Assembly (NCBI RefSeq): GCF_000423865.1
Contig: NZ_AUIU01000014.1
Span: 124,001-188,000, forward strand
Reading direction: 5' to 3'
DNA from: Thermodesulfovibrio thiophilus DSM 17215
GTDB lineage: Bacteria; Nitrospirota; Thermodesulfovibrionia; Thermodesulfovibrionales; Thermodesulfovibrionaceae
DNA length: 64,000 nucleotides
The notes beneath the pieces were generated by a model that saw only the letters and a program-made list of their open reading frames with translations, ran no database searches and was not told the origin of the DNA. This document shows positions 6,974 to 44,510 of this stretch, piece by piece. Each line of letters opens with the position of its first letter. The stretch's first letter is position 1. The position numbers were made by a program, and so were the translations under genes.

Positions 6974-7303
6974 GTGAGAAAGTATTCTCTAAGAGAACAG
7001 CTTGTAAAAGAAAAAAAAAGAAGAAATAAAATATTTCTTTTCATAGTCGTTTCAGTAATGATTTTTCTTGGTTATAGTTTCTTCTTTGGCGATATGGGTT
7101 ATTTAAAATATAAAAAATTAAAGCAAAATGAACAAAAACTTTTAAAAGAAATCAATGAGATTTCGGCTGAAAACACAGCCATTAAAAATGAAATAAATCT
7201 CCTTAAAAATAATCCTTCTTACCTGGAAAAATACTCAAGAGAAAAGTTTGGACTTGTTAAACAGGGAGAAATGGTTTTTCAATTTCAGAAAGAAGACAGA
7301 TGA
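6974..7303 (+). CDS. FtsB/DivIC-like septum formation initiator
   Basis: Short bitopic protein: a basic cytoplasmic N terminus, one membrane helix (IFLFIVVSVMIFLGYSFFF) at about residues 22-42, and an extracytoplasmic coiled coil (KLKQNEQKLLKEINEISAEN) ending in YLEKYSREKFGLVKQGEMVFQF, the typical FtsB/DivIC end. It probably belongs to the FtsB-FtsL-FtsQ divisome subcomplex. I chose the GTG at 6974, just after the enolase stop. A TTG at 6962 in the same frame, inside eno, is the alternative, and neither has a clear ribosome binding site. The eno-ftsB order is common in bacteria. Its stop overlaps the GH57 start (ATGA). Confidence 0.85.
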   Translation: MRKYSLREQLVKEKKRRNKIFLFIVVSVMIFLGYSFFFGDMGYLKYKKLKQNEQKLLKEINEISAENTAIKNEINLLKNNPSYLEKYSREKFGLVKQGEMVFQFQKEDR

Positions 7304-9441
7304 GCATCAACTTAGCAATTCTCTGGCATATGCATCAACCCTACTATTATGATCCATTAAAAAATAAATTCATGCTTCCATGGGTAAGGTTACATGCAAC
7401 AAAAGACTATCTTGATATGCTTCTTATTGTAAAAAAATTTCCTGAAGTTAAAGTTACCTTTAATTTGGTTCCTTCATTACTAAAACAACTTAAAGAATAT
7501 GAAAATGGCTCAACAGATATATTTATTGAACATACCATTATTCCTGCAGAAGAACTCAGTGAGGAACAAAAAGCTTTTATTCTTGAAAACTTTTTTCTTG
7601 CAAACTGGAAGAATATGGTCTATATTTTTCCACGATACAGAGAATTACTTGAAAAAAGAGGGAAAGTCTATGCTGATCCCAAAAAATTGTCGAAAAAGTT
7701 CACACCTCAAGAAATGAGAGACCTTCAGGTTTTTTTCAATCTTGTATGGATAGACCCATTACACAGGAAAGAAGATCCCTTTTTAAATGACTTACAACAA
7801 AAAGGAAAAAATTTTACTGAGGAAGAAAAAATGCTTCTTCTTGATAAACATTTTGAAATTATAAAACGCATAGTCCCCTCTTACAAAGAAATGGCTTTAT
7901 CTGGACAGATTGAACTATCTGTTTCACCATTTTATCATCCAATATTACCACTTATTTATGACAATTACAAAGCCAGAGAATGTATGCCGCATGCAGTACT
8001 GCCACAACATAACTTCAGAGCACCAGAGGATGCAGAAGCTCAAATCACCATGGCTATAAATTACTTTGAAGATATGTTTGGATTCAAACCTAAGGGAATA
8101 TGGCCATCTGAAGGCTCTGTAAGTGAAGAAGTTATACAATTGATTGCAAAATCAGGAATTAAATGGATAGCAACCGATGAAGAAATTTTGAGCAAATCAA
8201 TAAATGAAAAATTACGGACTGGAGATAATCTAATCAATCCTTCAGTACTATATCAACCATATGAGTTTGAAGGAGTAAAAATTTTTTTTAGAGATAGAAT
8301 TCTTTCAGATTTAATAGGCTTTGTCTATTCTGGATGGGAAGCTCAAAAAGCTGCTAATGATTTTTTAAATCGTATTGTTAATTCGCAGATAACGTCAGGT
8401 ATTATCTCAGTCATTCTTGACGGAGAAAATGCATGGGAGTATTATGAAAATGATGGCTGGAATTTTCTTGAAAAACTTTATCAAGCTCTGGATCAAAATA
8501 AAAATATTAAAACAGTTACATTTTCTGAATACCTTAATCACACTCCTGATATAAAGCACTTAACTAAAGTTTTTCCTGGTTCATGGATTAATGCTGATTT
8601 TTCAATATGGATTGGCAGAGCAGAAGATAATCTTTCATGGGATTATCTTTACAAGGTTAGGCAAGAACTTATTTTGTATCAAAAAGAAAACCCGGATAAA
8701 GATATCAAAGAGGCATGGGAAGAAATATATATCGCAGAAGGAAGTGACTGGAACTGGTGGTATGGTGATGAACATTATACAGAAACTAAAGAAGTTTTTG
8801 ATGAAATTTACAGACATCATTTAACTGCAGTTTATTTGAAAATGGAAAAAGAACCACCCGCTTTTCTTTATGTGCCTATAAGTAAAAGAATGAGAGAGAT
8901 TAAACCTGAAATTGAACCAAGAGGTTATATAACTCCTAAAATTGATGGTAAGGTTACAAATTATTTTGAATGGCTTGAAGCAGGAAAGTTTAATCTTCAG
9001 AGAATGGGAGGAAGTATGCACAGATCAGAAAGCCTTTTTTCTGATCTGTATTATGGATTCAATCAGCAAAGTCTTTTTCTCAGACTTGATCCATATCATC
9101 TAGATTCACTAAATGCTTTTGAGGATTTAAAAATCCAAATACAGATTATCGAACCTAAAAGAATGAAAATATTGTATGAAAAACTAAATGTCCAGAGAGC
9201 TGAAGTGTTTGTTCAGGAGAATGAAAACTGGACAAAAAAACATACATTAAAAAATGTTACATTTAATGAAGTCTTCGAAATCGAACTGCCATTTAATTTA
9301 CTAGAAGTAAAGTCTGGAGAATATCTTATTTTTTTTATTGATATTTTTAAAAACAGTTATTTAATAGACAGAGTGCCTATTATTGGCTTTATAAAAATTC
9401 GCATTCCTCCTCCTGATTTCGATAGACTTATGTGGCTTTAA
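7300..9441 (+). CDS. Glycoside hydrolase family 57 protein (alpha-amylase/4-alpha-glucanotransferase type)
   Basis: A 713-residue GH57 enzyme, presumably cytoplasmic because no signal peptide is seen, acting on alpha-glucans such as glycogen. The (beta/alpha)7 domain starts with LAILWHMHQPYY. Region 3 is GIWPSEGSVSEEV near residue 267, where the family nucleophile Glu sits. Region 4 is ILDGENAWEYY near residue 372, with the acid/base Asp. A C-terminal beta-rich domain follows from about residue 560 (NYFEWLEAGKF). The specificity cannot be read from sequence alone. It is coupled to the upstream ftsB-like gene by a 4-bp overlap; the functional link, if any, is unclear. Confidence 0.9.
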   Translation: MSINLAILWHMHQPYYYDPLKNKFMLPWVRLHATKDYLDMLLIVKKFPEVKVTFNLVPSLLKQLKEYENGSTDIFIEHTIIPAEELSEEQKAFILENFFLANWKNMVYIFPRYRELLEKRGKVYADPKKLSKKFTPQEMRDLQVFFNLVWIDPLHRKEDPFLNDLQQKGKNFTEEEKMLLLDKHFEIIKRIVPSYKEMALSGQIELSVSPFYHPILPLIYDNYKARECMPHAVLPQHNFRAPEDAEAQITMAINYFEDMFGFKPKGIWPSEGSVSEEVIQLIAKSGIKWIATDEEILSKSINEKLRTGDNLINPSVLYQPYEFEGVKIFFRDRILSDLIGFVYSGWEAQKAANDFLNRIVNSQITSGIISVILDGENAWEYYENDGWNFLEKLYQALDQNKNIKTVTFSEYLNHTPDIKHLTKVFPGSWINADFSIWIGRAEDNLSWDYLYKVRQELILYQKENPDKDIKEAWEEIYIAEGSDWNWWYGDEHYTETKEVFDEIYRHHLTAVYLKMEKEPPAFLYVPISKRMREIKPEIEPRGYITPKIDGKVTNYFEWLEAGKFNLQRMGGSMHRSESLFSDLYYGFNQQSLFLRLDPYHLDSLNAFEDLKIQIQIIEPKRMKILYEKLNVQRAEVFVQENENWTKKHTLKNVTFNEVFEIELPFNLLEVKSGEYLIFFIDIFKNSYLIDRVPIIGFIKIRIPPPDFDRLMWL

Positions 9442-9465
9442 TAGAAAAAATCTATTTTACTTTTT
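9440..9465 (+). terminator. Weak intrinsic terminator after the GH57 gene
   Basis: AATAGA (9440-9445) and TCTATT (9451-9456) form a 6-bp AT-rich stem followed by TTACTTTTT. It lies at the stop codon of the GH57 gene and ahead of the tRNA. The stem is weak, so this is tentative. Confidence 0.35.
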
Positions 9466-9742
9466 GGAAATATCTATCTTAAATTAATGGTGCGGGATGT
9501 GAGAGTGGCACTCTTCTTCTGGTCTGCAAAATCAGAGATGCGTGATGTAATATTCATGCAGTGGGTTCAATCCCACCATCCCTCTCCATTAAATCTGTAT
9601 TTGGGTTTGAAAAAGAACGTCACAAATTTAGTTTTAGTCATTATTTTCCATTCAAAGTTTTTATCCAATATCGATGCATTATGCAAGATCTTTAATTATT
9701 TGATATACTGTTATTAATACAACTAAATTATAGGAGGGCAAA
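9442..9742 (+). other. Intergenic region containing the tRNA
   Basis: Apart from the tRNA at 9492-9588 and the weak hairpin at its left end, this region holds only AT-rich sequence. A possible -10 (TATACT near 9704) and a ribosome binding site AGGAGGG just before the DUF2934 gene are visible. I see no credible small ORF here. Confidence 0.6.
9492..9588 (+). tRNA. Atypical tRNA-Cys (anticodon GCA) with a selenocysteine-tRNA-like fold
   Basis: Cloverleaf of 97 nt including encoded CCA (9586-9588). The acceptor stem has 8 pairs (9492-9499 with 9577-9584, one C-U mismatch at the second pair) instead of 7. The D arm is compact: 9502-9506 with 9510-9514 and a 3-nt loop, or 4 pairs with a 5-nt loop. 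The anticodon stem is 9519-9523 with 9531-9535, extendable by two pairs, and the loop CTGCAAA gives anticodon GCA (9526-9528). The variable arm is long: 7 pairs (9539-9545 with 9554-9560) and an 8-nt loop. The T arm is either 5 pairs with a 6-nt loop, or 4 pairs with bulged G9563 and a normal 7-nt loop TTCAATC. The discriminator is U73 (9585), a CysRS identity element, whereas bacterial tRNA-Sec has G73 and anticodon UCA. Long variable arm plus 8-pair acceptor is the tRNA-Sec architecture. Most likely a minor cysteine tRNA that mimics tRNA-Sec. Confidence 0.82.
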
Positions 9743-25316: not shown

Positions 25317-25328
25317 TATGTCAGAAAA

Positions 25329-25419
25329 CGGAGAGGCAGGGATTCGAACCCTGGGTGGAGCTTTTGGCCCCACAACCGCTTAGCAGGCGGCTGCCTTCGA
25401 CCGACTCGGCCACCTCTCC
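25329..25419 (-). tRNA. tRNA-Ser (anticodon GCU)
   Basis: Acceptor stem GGAGAGG/CCTCTCC with G73 (at 25329). D arm TGGCCGAGTCGGTCGAAGG, anticodon loop TGCTAA giving GCU, long variable arm (TGTGGGG...CTCCACCC) and T arm GGGTTCGAATCCC. It is 91 nt to the discriminator. CCA is not encoded. It lies just upstream of the DedA gene on the same strand. Confidence 0.97.
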
Positions 25420-25444
25420 AAAGTTTAATTAATAATACCATTCT

Positions 25445-41420: not shown

Positions 41421-44400
41421 CTATGCCTTCTCTATGTTGACCATGAATGCCTTTGTTTCGGGTATCATGGTATTTGGGTCACCTACTGATGGTGTAAGCA
41501 GATTTGCACTATCACCGCCGGAACCGTCTTTAGGCCATTGCCATCCATAGTGCCATGGCAAACCAACCTGATGTATTGTCATTCCCATAACTTTAAATGG
41601 TTTTAATCTATCTGTGACGATTGCAATTGCCCAGAGCTTTCCTCTGACAGATGAAACTACTACTTTATCTCCGCTGTTTATCCCCTTTTCTTTTGCAAGT
41701 TCTTTGCTCATCTCAATAAATATCTGAGGCTCAAGCTCAAGCAGCCAATCTGTATGTCTTGTCATGACCCCGGTCTGCCAGTGTTCTGTTACTCTGTAGG
41801 TTGTGCAGACATACGGATATCTTGTATCACAATAAATAAATGCGTCAGCATCTGTTCCAAATAACTTTACAGTAGGATTTATCCTATGTTTTTTATAAAG
41901 TGGGTTTTCCTGAAATGGACACTCAAGTGGTTCATAGTGTGTTGGGAATGGTCCATCAGCCAATCCAGTTCCAAATATTGCACCCACGCCAAGAGGCTTC
42001 ATTATAAATGGAAGTTTTCCACCTTCCATTGCAAGTGGTGGAGCTGGTCCATCTGGAATATCTCCCAACCATTTTTTATTTGCTGTATCCCACTTCAGCA
42101 ATGGTCTCTTTGGATCCCATGGATTACCCTGTGGATCAACACTTGCACGATTATAAATTATGCGTCTGTTTAGAGGCCAGCACCATGCCCAGTTTAAATA
42201 AAGTCCGAGTCCTGTTGGATCTTCCTTGCCTCTCCTTGCCATCATATTTCCTTTTTCAGTGTAGCTTGCACAGTACAACCAGTTACCTGAAGAGGTCTTC
42301 CCATCGTCTCTTAAAAATACAAAACTTGGAACAAGCTCCCCTTTCTTTCCTATAAGTTTTCCATCCTTGTCATATACATCCTCAAGATAGTATCCATTTA
42401 TCTCTTTTGCAATAAGATTGATATTAATATGCTTTATTTTTCCCTGTCTGTCCTTCTCGCCATAATCCCATGTAAGATTTACTATTGGTTCAGGAAATGC
42501 TCCTTTTTCTTGTTCATAAAGTTTCTTTACTCTGAAGTAAAGCTCATTCATTATTTCAGCATCTGGTAGAGTTTTTCCTGGTGGATTCACTGCTTTATAT
42601 CTCCACTGGGCAAGCCTTCCAGAGTTAGTGATACTTCCCTCTTTTTCAACTGAGCTGGCACATGGAAGGAAGAAAACTTCTGTTTTTATTTTTTTGGGAT
42701 CCATTCCAGGACCTCTCCAGAATGAAGCTGTTTCATTATCCCAGAGATTGACAGTAACAAGCCAGTCAAGCTTTGCAAGAGCTTTTCTTGTTTTGTTTGA
42801 GTTAGCACCAGAACACGCTGGATTCTGTCCCCATGAAAAGAATCCTTTAATTTTTCCTTTGTACATCTGATCAAAAATCATGAGCCATGAGTAGTCCTGA
42901 CCATCATCTCTCTTTGGCAAGTAGCTATAGCAAAAGTCATTATATTTTGTTGCCTTATCCCCATAGATGGCTTTCAAGTAGCTTACTATATATTTTGGTC
43001 TGTTAGACCACCAATTTACGCTTCTTGGTTCTTTTGTTTTTGGTGTGTATTTTTCAATATATTTTTTTAAATCAGTATCACTTGCAACTGGGATGGGATT
43101 GTATCCTGGAAGAATATGGAAAAGTATTCCATAGTCAGTTGAACCCTGGACATTGGATTCGCCTCTGAGGGCGTTCACTCCTCCTCCAGCCATTCCAACG
43201 TTACCAAGTAGCAGCTGAACAATTGTAAATGTTCTTATGTTCTGAACTCCAATTGTGTGCTGCGTCCATCCCATTGCATAGCATTCTGTCATTACTCTAT
43301 CTGGTTTACCAGTGGATGCTAAAATTTTATACGCCTCTTCAATTTTATCCTTTGGTGCTCCTGTAATATCTGAAACTGTATCTATGGTGTATCTTAAATA
43401 ATGCTTTTTAAGAAGCTGAAACACACAGTTTGGATCCTGAAGTGTTGGATCTTTCTTTGGAACGCCATTTTCATCAAGCTGGAATTTCCATGTTGATTTG
43501 TCATAGCTTCTTTTTTGCTCATCATATCCGGAGAATACTCCATCAAGGTCTTCAGGAGTTTTAAAGTTGGGGTCAACAAGAAAAGATGCATCTGTGTAGT
43601 TTACAACATAATCTTTAAAATACAGATTGTTATCTATAATGTACTTGATCAATCCTCCAAGAAATACAACATCTGATCCTGAACGAATTGGAACATAAAG
43701 GTCTGCTTTTGATGCTGTTCTTGTAAATTTGGGATCAATAACTACAAGTTTTGCACCTCTCTGTTCCTTTGCTCTCATTATCCATTTCATTGATATTGGA
43801 TGATTTTCTGCAGGATTACCACCCATGACTAAAACCACATCTGCATTTTTGAGGTCAATCCAGTGATTTGTCATTGCTCCTCTGCCAAACGACTCTCCCA
43901 GAGCCGCTACAGTGGCAGAATGTCATATACGAGCCTGATGTTCAATATAAACAAGCCCCCAGGAACGCATGAGCTTCTGCATTAGATAGCACTCTTCATT
44001 ATCCATTGCAGCTGATCCAACATGAGCAATTGAATCAACTCTGTTTACAATCTGTCCTTTTGCATTTTTTGTGATGAAATATTTATCCCTTGTTTGTTTA
44101 ACAAGCCTGGCGATTTTATTCAGAGCTTCTTCCCAGCTAATTTTTTTCCATTCTGTTGCACCAGGTGCACGATACATGGGTTCAGTTACTCTGTAAGGAT
44201 TGTTCGCCATCTGATAAATTGATGCCCCTTTCGGGCACAGTGCTCCCTCGTTAATTGGACTGTCCGGATCACCTTCTGTGTTAATTACCTTACCCTCTTT
44301 AGCAAAGACAATGATACTACAGCCAACAGAACAGTAAGGACATATCGTCGTTGTCTCCCTGGCACCCTTTGTTCTCAGCTCCGCTGCATAGGCTTTTGCC

Positions 44401-44480
44401 GGTTCAAGATTAAGCCCGATTGAGCTGAGAAGAAGAGCACCTGTAGAGATTTTCAAGAAACCTCGTCTGGTAAGCTCCAT
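41421..44480 (-). CDS. fdhA: Selenocysteine-containing, Tat-exported formate dehydrogenase catalytic subunit
   Basis: Oxidises formate at a molybdenum or tungsten bis-MGD centre, in the periplasm. 1019 residues counting Sec. A Tat signal (LTRRGFLK) opens the protein. The [4Fe-4S] site CPYCSVGCSII...GALCPKG lies near residue 47. Codon 186 is an in-frame TGA (43923-43925) in QARI-U-HSATVAALGESFGRG, the exact position of Sec in FdnG-type enzymes. The frame continues unbroken to 41421, with WKM-type Mo-bis-PGD domains, GGNPAENHP, and a C-terminal formate dehydrogenase dinucleotide-binding domain (TGVMTRH...LEPQIFIEMSKELA). GGAGGAG precedes the ATG. Conceptual translation without Sec splits it in two. 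Upstream control elements are listed separately. Confidence 0.96.
43882..43918 (-). ncRNA. Bacterial SECIS element in fdhA mRNA
   Basis: On the minus strand CTGCCA (43913-43918) pairs with TGGCAG (43882-43887). Inside, CGGCTC pairs with GAGTCG with one G-U, closing a TGGGA loop with the GG that SelB recognises. It starts 4 nt after the UGA codon, the right spacing for bacterial SelB-dependent insertion. Confidence 0.88.
43923..43925 (-). other. Sec (UGA) codon of fdhA
   Basis: TGA in frame at codon 186, flanked by residues that match FdnG/FdhA enzymes on both sides, with a SECIS-like hairpin starting a few bases downstream. The in-frame continuation of 833 codons rules out a real stop. Confidence 0.97.
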
Positions 44481-44510
44481 AAAAACTCCTCCTTTTTATT
44501 TGATTAAAAT

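Follow-up and report, generated by a model that had tools for sequence, protein, structure and literature searches.

The window, a 64,000-nucleotide stretch of the genome of Thermodesulfovibrio thiophilus DSM 17215, a heat-loving sulfate reducer, contains a real RNA gene on its forward strand at 9492-9588. It is a selC*-type tRNA-Cys with the anticodon GCA, 97 nt long including the encoded CCA, and it matches a covariance model of the genus. In the acceptor stem (9492-9499 with 9577-9584) the 5' strand GCGGGAUG stands opposite CAUCCCUC, which is followed by U73 (9585) and the CCA (9586-9588), and 7 of the 8 positions pair. The two strands, GCGGGATG/CATCCCTC, form 7 standard pairs plus one C2.U71 mismatch (C9493.U9583). 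Of the 8-pair acceptor that had been predicted from the sequence, the eight positions therefore stand and the eight pairs do not; the other six copies of the genus are paired at 8/8 positions, and the window copy is among the few mismatched ones.

The compact D arm lies at 9501-9515 (GAGAGU-GGC-ACUCUU, or alternatively 5 bp with a 5-nt loop). It is followed by the anticodon arm at 9518-9536, with a stem of 6-7 bp and the 7-nt loop CUGCAAA (9524-9530) that presents GCA at 9526-9528, and by a long variable arm at 9539-9560, in which 7 bp (9539-9545 with 9554-9560) enclose an 8-nt loop. The D arm, the seven variable-arm pairs and the intact Cys identity elements (GCA and U73) all agree with the original prediction, as does its general description of a tRNA-Cys built on a tRNA-Sec frame. 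The T arm (9561-9576) reads GUGGG-UUCAAU-CCCAC, with the stem 9561-9565 paired to 9572-9576. Two drawings had been proposed for it: the one with 5 pairs and a 6-nt loop gave -7.1 kcal/mol and the one with 4 pairs and a bulged G gave +1.2 kcal/mol, as secondary-structure energies with tertiary contacts outside the calculation. The calculated energies thus favour the first drawing for the window copy, the second being possible but less likely. Folding of the whole RNA gave a minimum free energy of -35.7 kcal/mol, with z = -3.43 against shuffles.

Standard searches passed over this gene. ARAGORN did not report 9492-9588, the sole tRNA that it gave in the window being a tRNA-Ser(GCT) at 25328-25420 on the reverse strand. 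Similarly, Rfam at the gathering threshold had no match there, and the score with the tRNA-Sec model RF01852 was 30.6 bits, where the cut-off is 47. Genes of the selC* type can thus be overlooked by Rfam at its gathering threshold as well as by a standard tRNA finder.

The original prediction had suggested looking in the same genome for an ordinary tRNA-Cys and a tRNA-Sec, and both were found: a 7/5 tRNA-Cys(GCA) on contig C5 at 8609-8681, and a tRNA-Sec with UCA and G73 on C16 at 64644, to which the window RNA is 68.5% identical. One SelB and one CysRS are encoded in the genome, as in all other genomes of the genus with good coverage, and no sign of selB* or cysS* was seen in them. The window RNA lacks the 7/5 arms and short variable region of a canonical tRNA-Cys. 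It also differs from tRNA-Sec (UCA, G73) and from allo-tRNAs (serine identity, 8/4 or 9/3 arms) in having GCA and U73. Of the marks of selC*, it has GCA (the group having GCA or UCA) together with U73, a long variable arm with a longer anticodon stem, and the co-existence with tRNA-Sec and SelB.

The distribution of the gene was followed with two covariance models. Model 1 (A1, R1), built from six genus copies, found selC* in 7 of the 16 genus genomes when its rows were read against those of tRNA-Sec; in the other nine genomes, some of them incomplete, no copy was found. Model 2 (A2, R2), built from 50 Nitrospirota copies, counted 56 of the 129 genomes of the order at a threshold of at least 68 bits. 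Among the 50 sequences of A2, both sides had changed in 24 of the 33 pairs and 95.6% of the cells were paired, in an alignment that was fitted to the R1 structure and somewhat favours it. None of 500 shuffles matched it on any measure, and the pairing broke when partners were slid by 1 to 3 columns. Within the genus, the D and variable arms diverge in sequence with their pairing largely kept; the window D arm is unlike the GGGAC-UGGU-GUCCC of its relatives, yet it pairs. A conserved gene with compensatory pairs argues against a tRNA-Sec pseudogene with random mutations, the outcome that the original prediction had named as fatal to itself. Anticodon, U73 and CCA are retained in the Nitrospirota relatives that were read. 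The T-stem pairs 49-65, 50-64, 51-63 and 53-61 are identical in 50/50 aligned selC* copies and in nearly all tRNA-Sec read. The idea that the T stems of selC* and tRNA-Sec change together was rejected, because the genomes with GUGUG/CGCAC copies of selC* have an ordinary GUGGG tRNA-Sec.

Immediately upstream of the tRNA lies a GH57-type glycoside hydrolase-like gene (7300-9441, forward strand), a label that is a reading of its sequence and not the outcome of a family search. It marks a location shared by five of the genus's species, where selC* directly follows it; in further genomes of the genus the GH57-like gene is present with no selC* behind it. Between its stop codon and the tRNA, a leader of about 45 nt (9442-9486, forward strand) is conserved in the five species and is a candidate promoter region. 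A sigma-70 consensus scan found no plus-strand site within 9442-9486, and scans for sigma-70 consensus and terminators around the tRNA gene gave nothing above chance. None of the seven selC* loci of the genus has a selenium-linked gene within 1.5 kb.

Outside the genus the surroundings are different. ORFs flanking the selC* loci were clustered, and recurrent families were located with tblastn. The recurrent neighbours were a LysR regulator, YedF, a double-cubane-cluster reductase with its activase, a split-Soret-cytochrome-like protein, a transglutaminase-like protein, a YedE/TsuA-type membrane protein and SelB. Among the representatives tested against NCBIfam, LysR_Sec_metab, YedF, the double-cubane reductase, the activase and SelB scored above the cut-off, and the split-Soret and Nitrospirota transporter matches fell below it. 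The Nitrospirota transporter was therefore not accepted as YedE and is TsuA/YeeE-like instead; the selenium YedE itself was above the cut-off at three non-Nitrospirota selC* loci. LysR_Se, YedE, YedF and DUF3343 have been proposed as selenium-metabolism genes (Lin 2015, PMC5322559). At least one selenium-linked family lay within 1.5 kb of 53 of the 64 non-genus Nitrospirota selC* loci, a set that may include a few near-duplicates and has some short flanks, versus 0 of 36 tRNA-Sec loci. Other tRNA loci of the T. thiophilus genome served as a control and were positive in 6 of 36 cases, five of them through the SelB query, and these five matches are probably EF-Tu. In the relatives, selC* is often directly upstream of the selenium genes on the same strand; no convincing in-frame UGA was found in the selenium genes next to selC*.

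A selB-like gene follows selC* by 25-46 nt on the same strand at seven Nitrospirota loci, all of family f10 (L306, L307, L308, L137, L139, L312 and L317). They belong to G264 (twice), G262, G166, G153, G316 and G313, and an additional SelB is encoded elsewhere in the genomes G166, G153 and G316. When SelB* was compared with the SelB set, two substitutions were consistent, Q226H and P356S (L146 numbering). Such selB* genes beside selC* are known in Syntrophobacterales and Desulfobacterales (PMC7609411), and the Nitrospirota pairs extend this published pattern. At L307 (1987-4028) and L306 (2055-4096), YedF and a cysteine-desulfurase family protein are encoded beside the pair on the opposite strand, together with a small protein that resembles the DUF3343 of Lin 2015 and has no NCBIfam match. 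SelB was present in all selC*-bearing genomes checked (7 in the genus and 17 others). It was nearly universal in a wider check as well (36/38 genomes), so its co-occurrence with selC* is consistent with a role of SelB and is no proof of it. Five genomes (G097, G108, G212, G023 and G242) have SelB and selC* with no separate tRNA-Sec match. They were considered as cases of selC* surviving without a Sec system, which was rejected because SelB is found in all five; the lacking match may come from filtering, search or assembly loss, or real loss.

The selC* tRNA-Cys is a kind that is already known. A tRNASec-like tRNACys (GCA) of Desulfotomaculum nigrificans is said to have been described by Vargas-Rodriguez in 2018, and selC* tRNA-Cys was reportedly described by Mukai in 2017; tRNA-ReC is another name for this group, including the D. 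nigrificans member. The latter has been reviewed as being carried by SelB, not by EF-Tu, and as reading Sec UGA codons as Cys (PMC11415595, 2024 review). It has GCA, a tRNA-Sec-like frame and a Sec-decoding host in common with the window RNA. The published selC* group has U73 and a modified 8/4 form with a bulged A51a, with Nitrospirae among its hosts (PMC7609411); the window RNA resembles it in U73, GCA and the long acceptor and variable arm, and selB* neighbours recur here in family f10. In contrast, most Nitrospirota copies are 8/5 without the bulge, and the window's genus showed neither cysS* nor selB*, unlike the published description. The minor Cys tRNAs with 8/4 arms to which the original prediction referred match the published group; among Nitrospirota 8/5 is usual, as in bacterial tRNA-Sec. 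The related loci of the Desulfotomaculum group that were read have an extra T-stem nucleotide; several Firmicutes and other non-Nitrospirota copies likewise have one and come close to the modified form (PMC7609411).

Three further kinds of tRNA are comparable. With tRNA-Sec (selC, RF01852) the window RNA shares the 8-bp acceptor frame, the compact D arm, the long variable arm and GUGGG/CCCAC, and it differs in having GCA and U73 in place of UCA and G73. The tRNA-Sec (GCA) of Aeromonas salmonicida likewise combines a Sec frame with GCA, but it reads targeted Cys codons as Sec (PMC11415595); U73 and the presence of a separate UCA tRNA-Sec point to Cys identity for the window RNA, unlike the A. 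salmonicida tRNA. The allo-tRNAs, which come from the same survey of Sec-like tRNAs (PMC7609411), differ from the window RNA in their serine identity and in arms of the 8/4 or 9/3 type.

A possible target lies in the window itself. The gene for a formate dehydrogenase-N alpha subunit (41424-44495, reverse strand) has an in-frame UGA at 43925-43923, and the sequence that immediately follows folds into a strong hairpin (-22.3 kcal/mol, z = -3.14); UGA and fdnG hairpin together span 43925-43875. Its product is likely a selenoprotein. Its UGA and hairpin make it a candidate target, being the codon type on which the published Sec-to-Cys route would act. A SECIS reporter with UGC/UGU as the codon had also been proposed; this choice has to be corrected, since the published target codon is UGA.

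From these comparisons we consider it probable that the window RNA belongs to the selC*/tRNA-ReC group and that, once CysRS has charged it, SelB carries it to UGA codons, where it inserts Cys as a backup in selenium shortage. U73 and GCA suggest that CysRS would charge it with Cys. The Desulfotomaculum member and the common T arm suggest that SelB, not EF-Tu, would carry the Cys-tRNA, and SelB would then place Cys at UGA codons that have a SECIS hairpin next to them. A Cys form of selenoproteins, for example formate dehydrogenase, could thereby be made when Sec-tRNA is short. Against such a backup role, GCA cannot pair normally with UGA, selC* in the genus stands beside no selenium gene, and 9 of the 16 genus genomes, some of them incomplete, show no copy.

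The window RNA could also be an ordinary minor tRNA-Cys that is carried by EF-Tu, reads UGC/UGU generally and has merely inherited the tRNA-Sec shape, because GCA normally reads these codons and the gene is seemingly dispensable in the genus. This seems improbable: a canonical tRNA-Cys is already in the genome, a general decoder would not be expected to be linked with selB and selenium genes, and the D. nigrificans member reportedly does not interact with EF-Tu (PMC11415595). A regulatory RNA, acting as a SelB decoy or as a processing signal of a selenium operon without decoding, would fit the copies of relatives, which often immediately precede selenium genes of the same orientation. We regard it as very improbable, as the relatives' anticodon, U73 and CCA are kept, none of which a pure decoy needs, and the gene heads no selenium operon in the window's genus.

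The window copy itself has oddities that bear on a further alternative. Its 6-nt T loop is the only one among 50 aligned Nitrospirota copies, the other 49 having 7 nt, so that the window copy is an exception to the usual form; given this loop and the acceptor mismatch, it may be a poor partner for SelB or CysRS. Because C2.U71 and the 1-nt T-loop deletion are both absent from the other six genus copies, the family could be a SelB-carried Cys tRNA of which this copy is losing function through decay, or the copy could contain an assembly or sequence error. The nine genus genomes in which the gene was not found, the GH57-like genes without it and the greater divergence of selC* than of tRNA-Sec across the same genome pairs would fit such a reading. 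On the other side, the altered D and variable arms have kept their pairing, the anticodon loop, U73, CCA and upstream leader are all intact, and the divergence of the window copy is not outside that of the G007 copy. We therefore hold decay or error to be unlikely, though a more serious alternative than the other two, and prefer a SelB-carried Cys tRNA that acts at UGA.

More tentatively, selC* of Nitrospirota might be part of a LysR_Se selenium regulon, in some cases with its own SelB, that switches from Sec to Cys at UGA when selenium is gone; the window's genus might have moved the gene out of the cluster, with reshaping of the T arm. If true, the UGA codons of many anaerobes would be subject to a programmed swap of Cys for Sec, with a timing under selenium control, as the neighbourhood data suggest. 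In the texts read we found no description of the selenium-cluster linkage across phyla, the Nitrospirota selC*-selB* pairs or the 6-nt T loop, which primary papers may contain. Among the selC* genes collected, six (L125, L130, L132, L133, L138 and L140, mostly of family f12) have variable arms of about 50-60 nt and are 127-132 nt long, and the genomes G199, G264 and G121 carry two selC* genes each.
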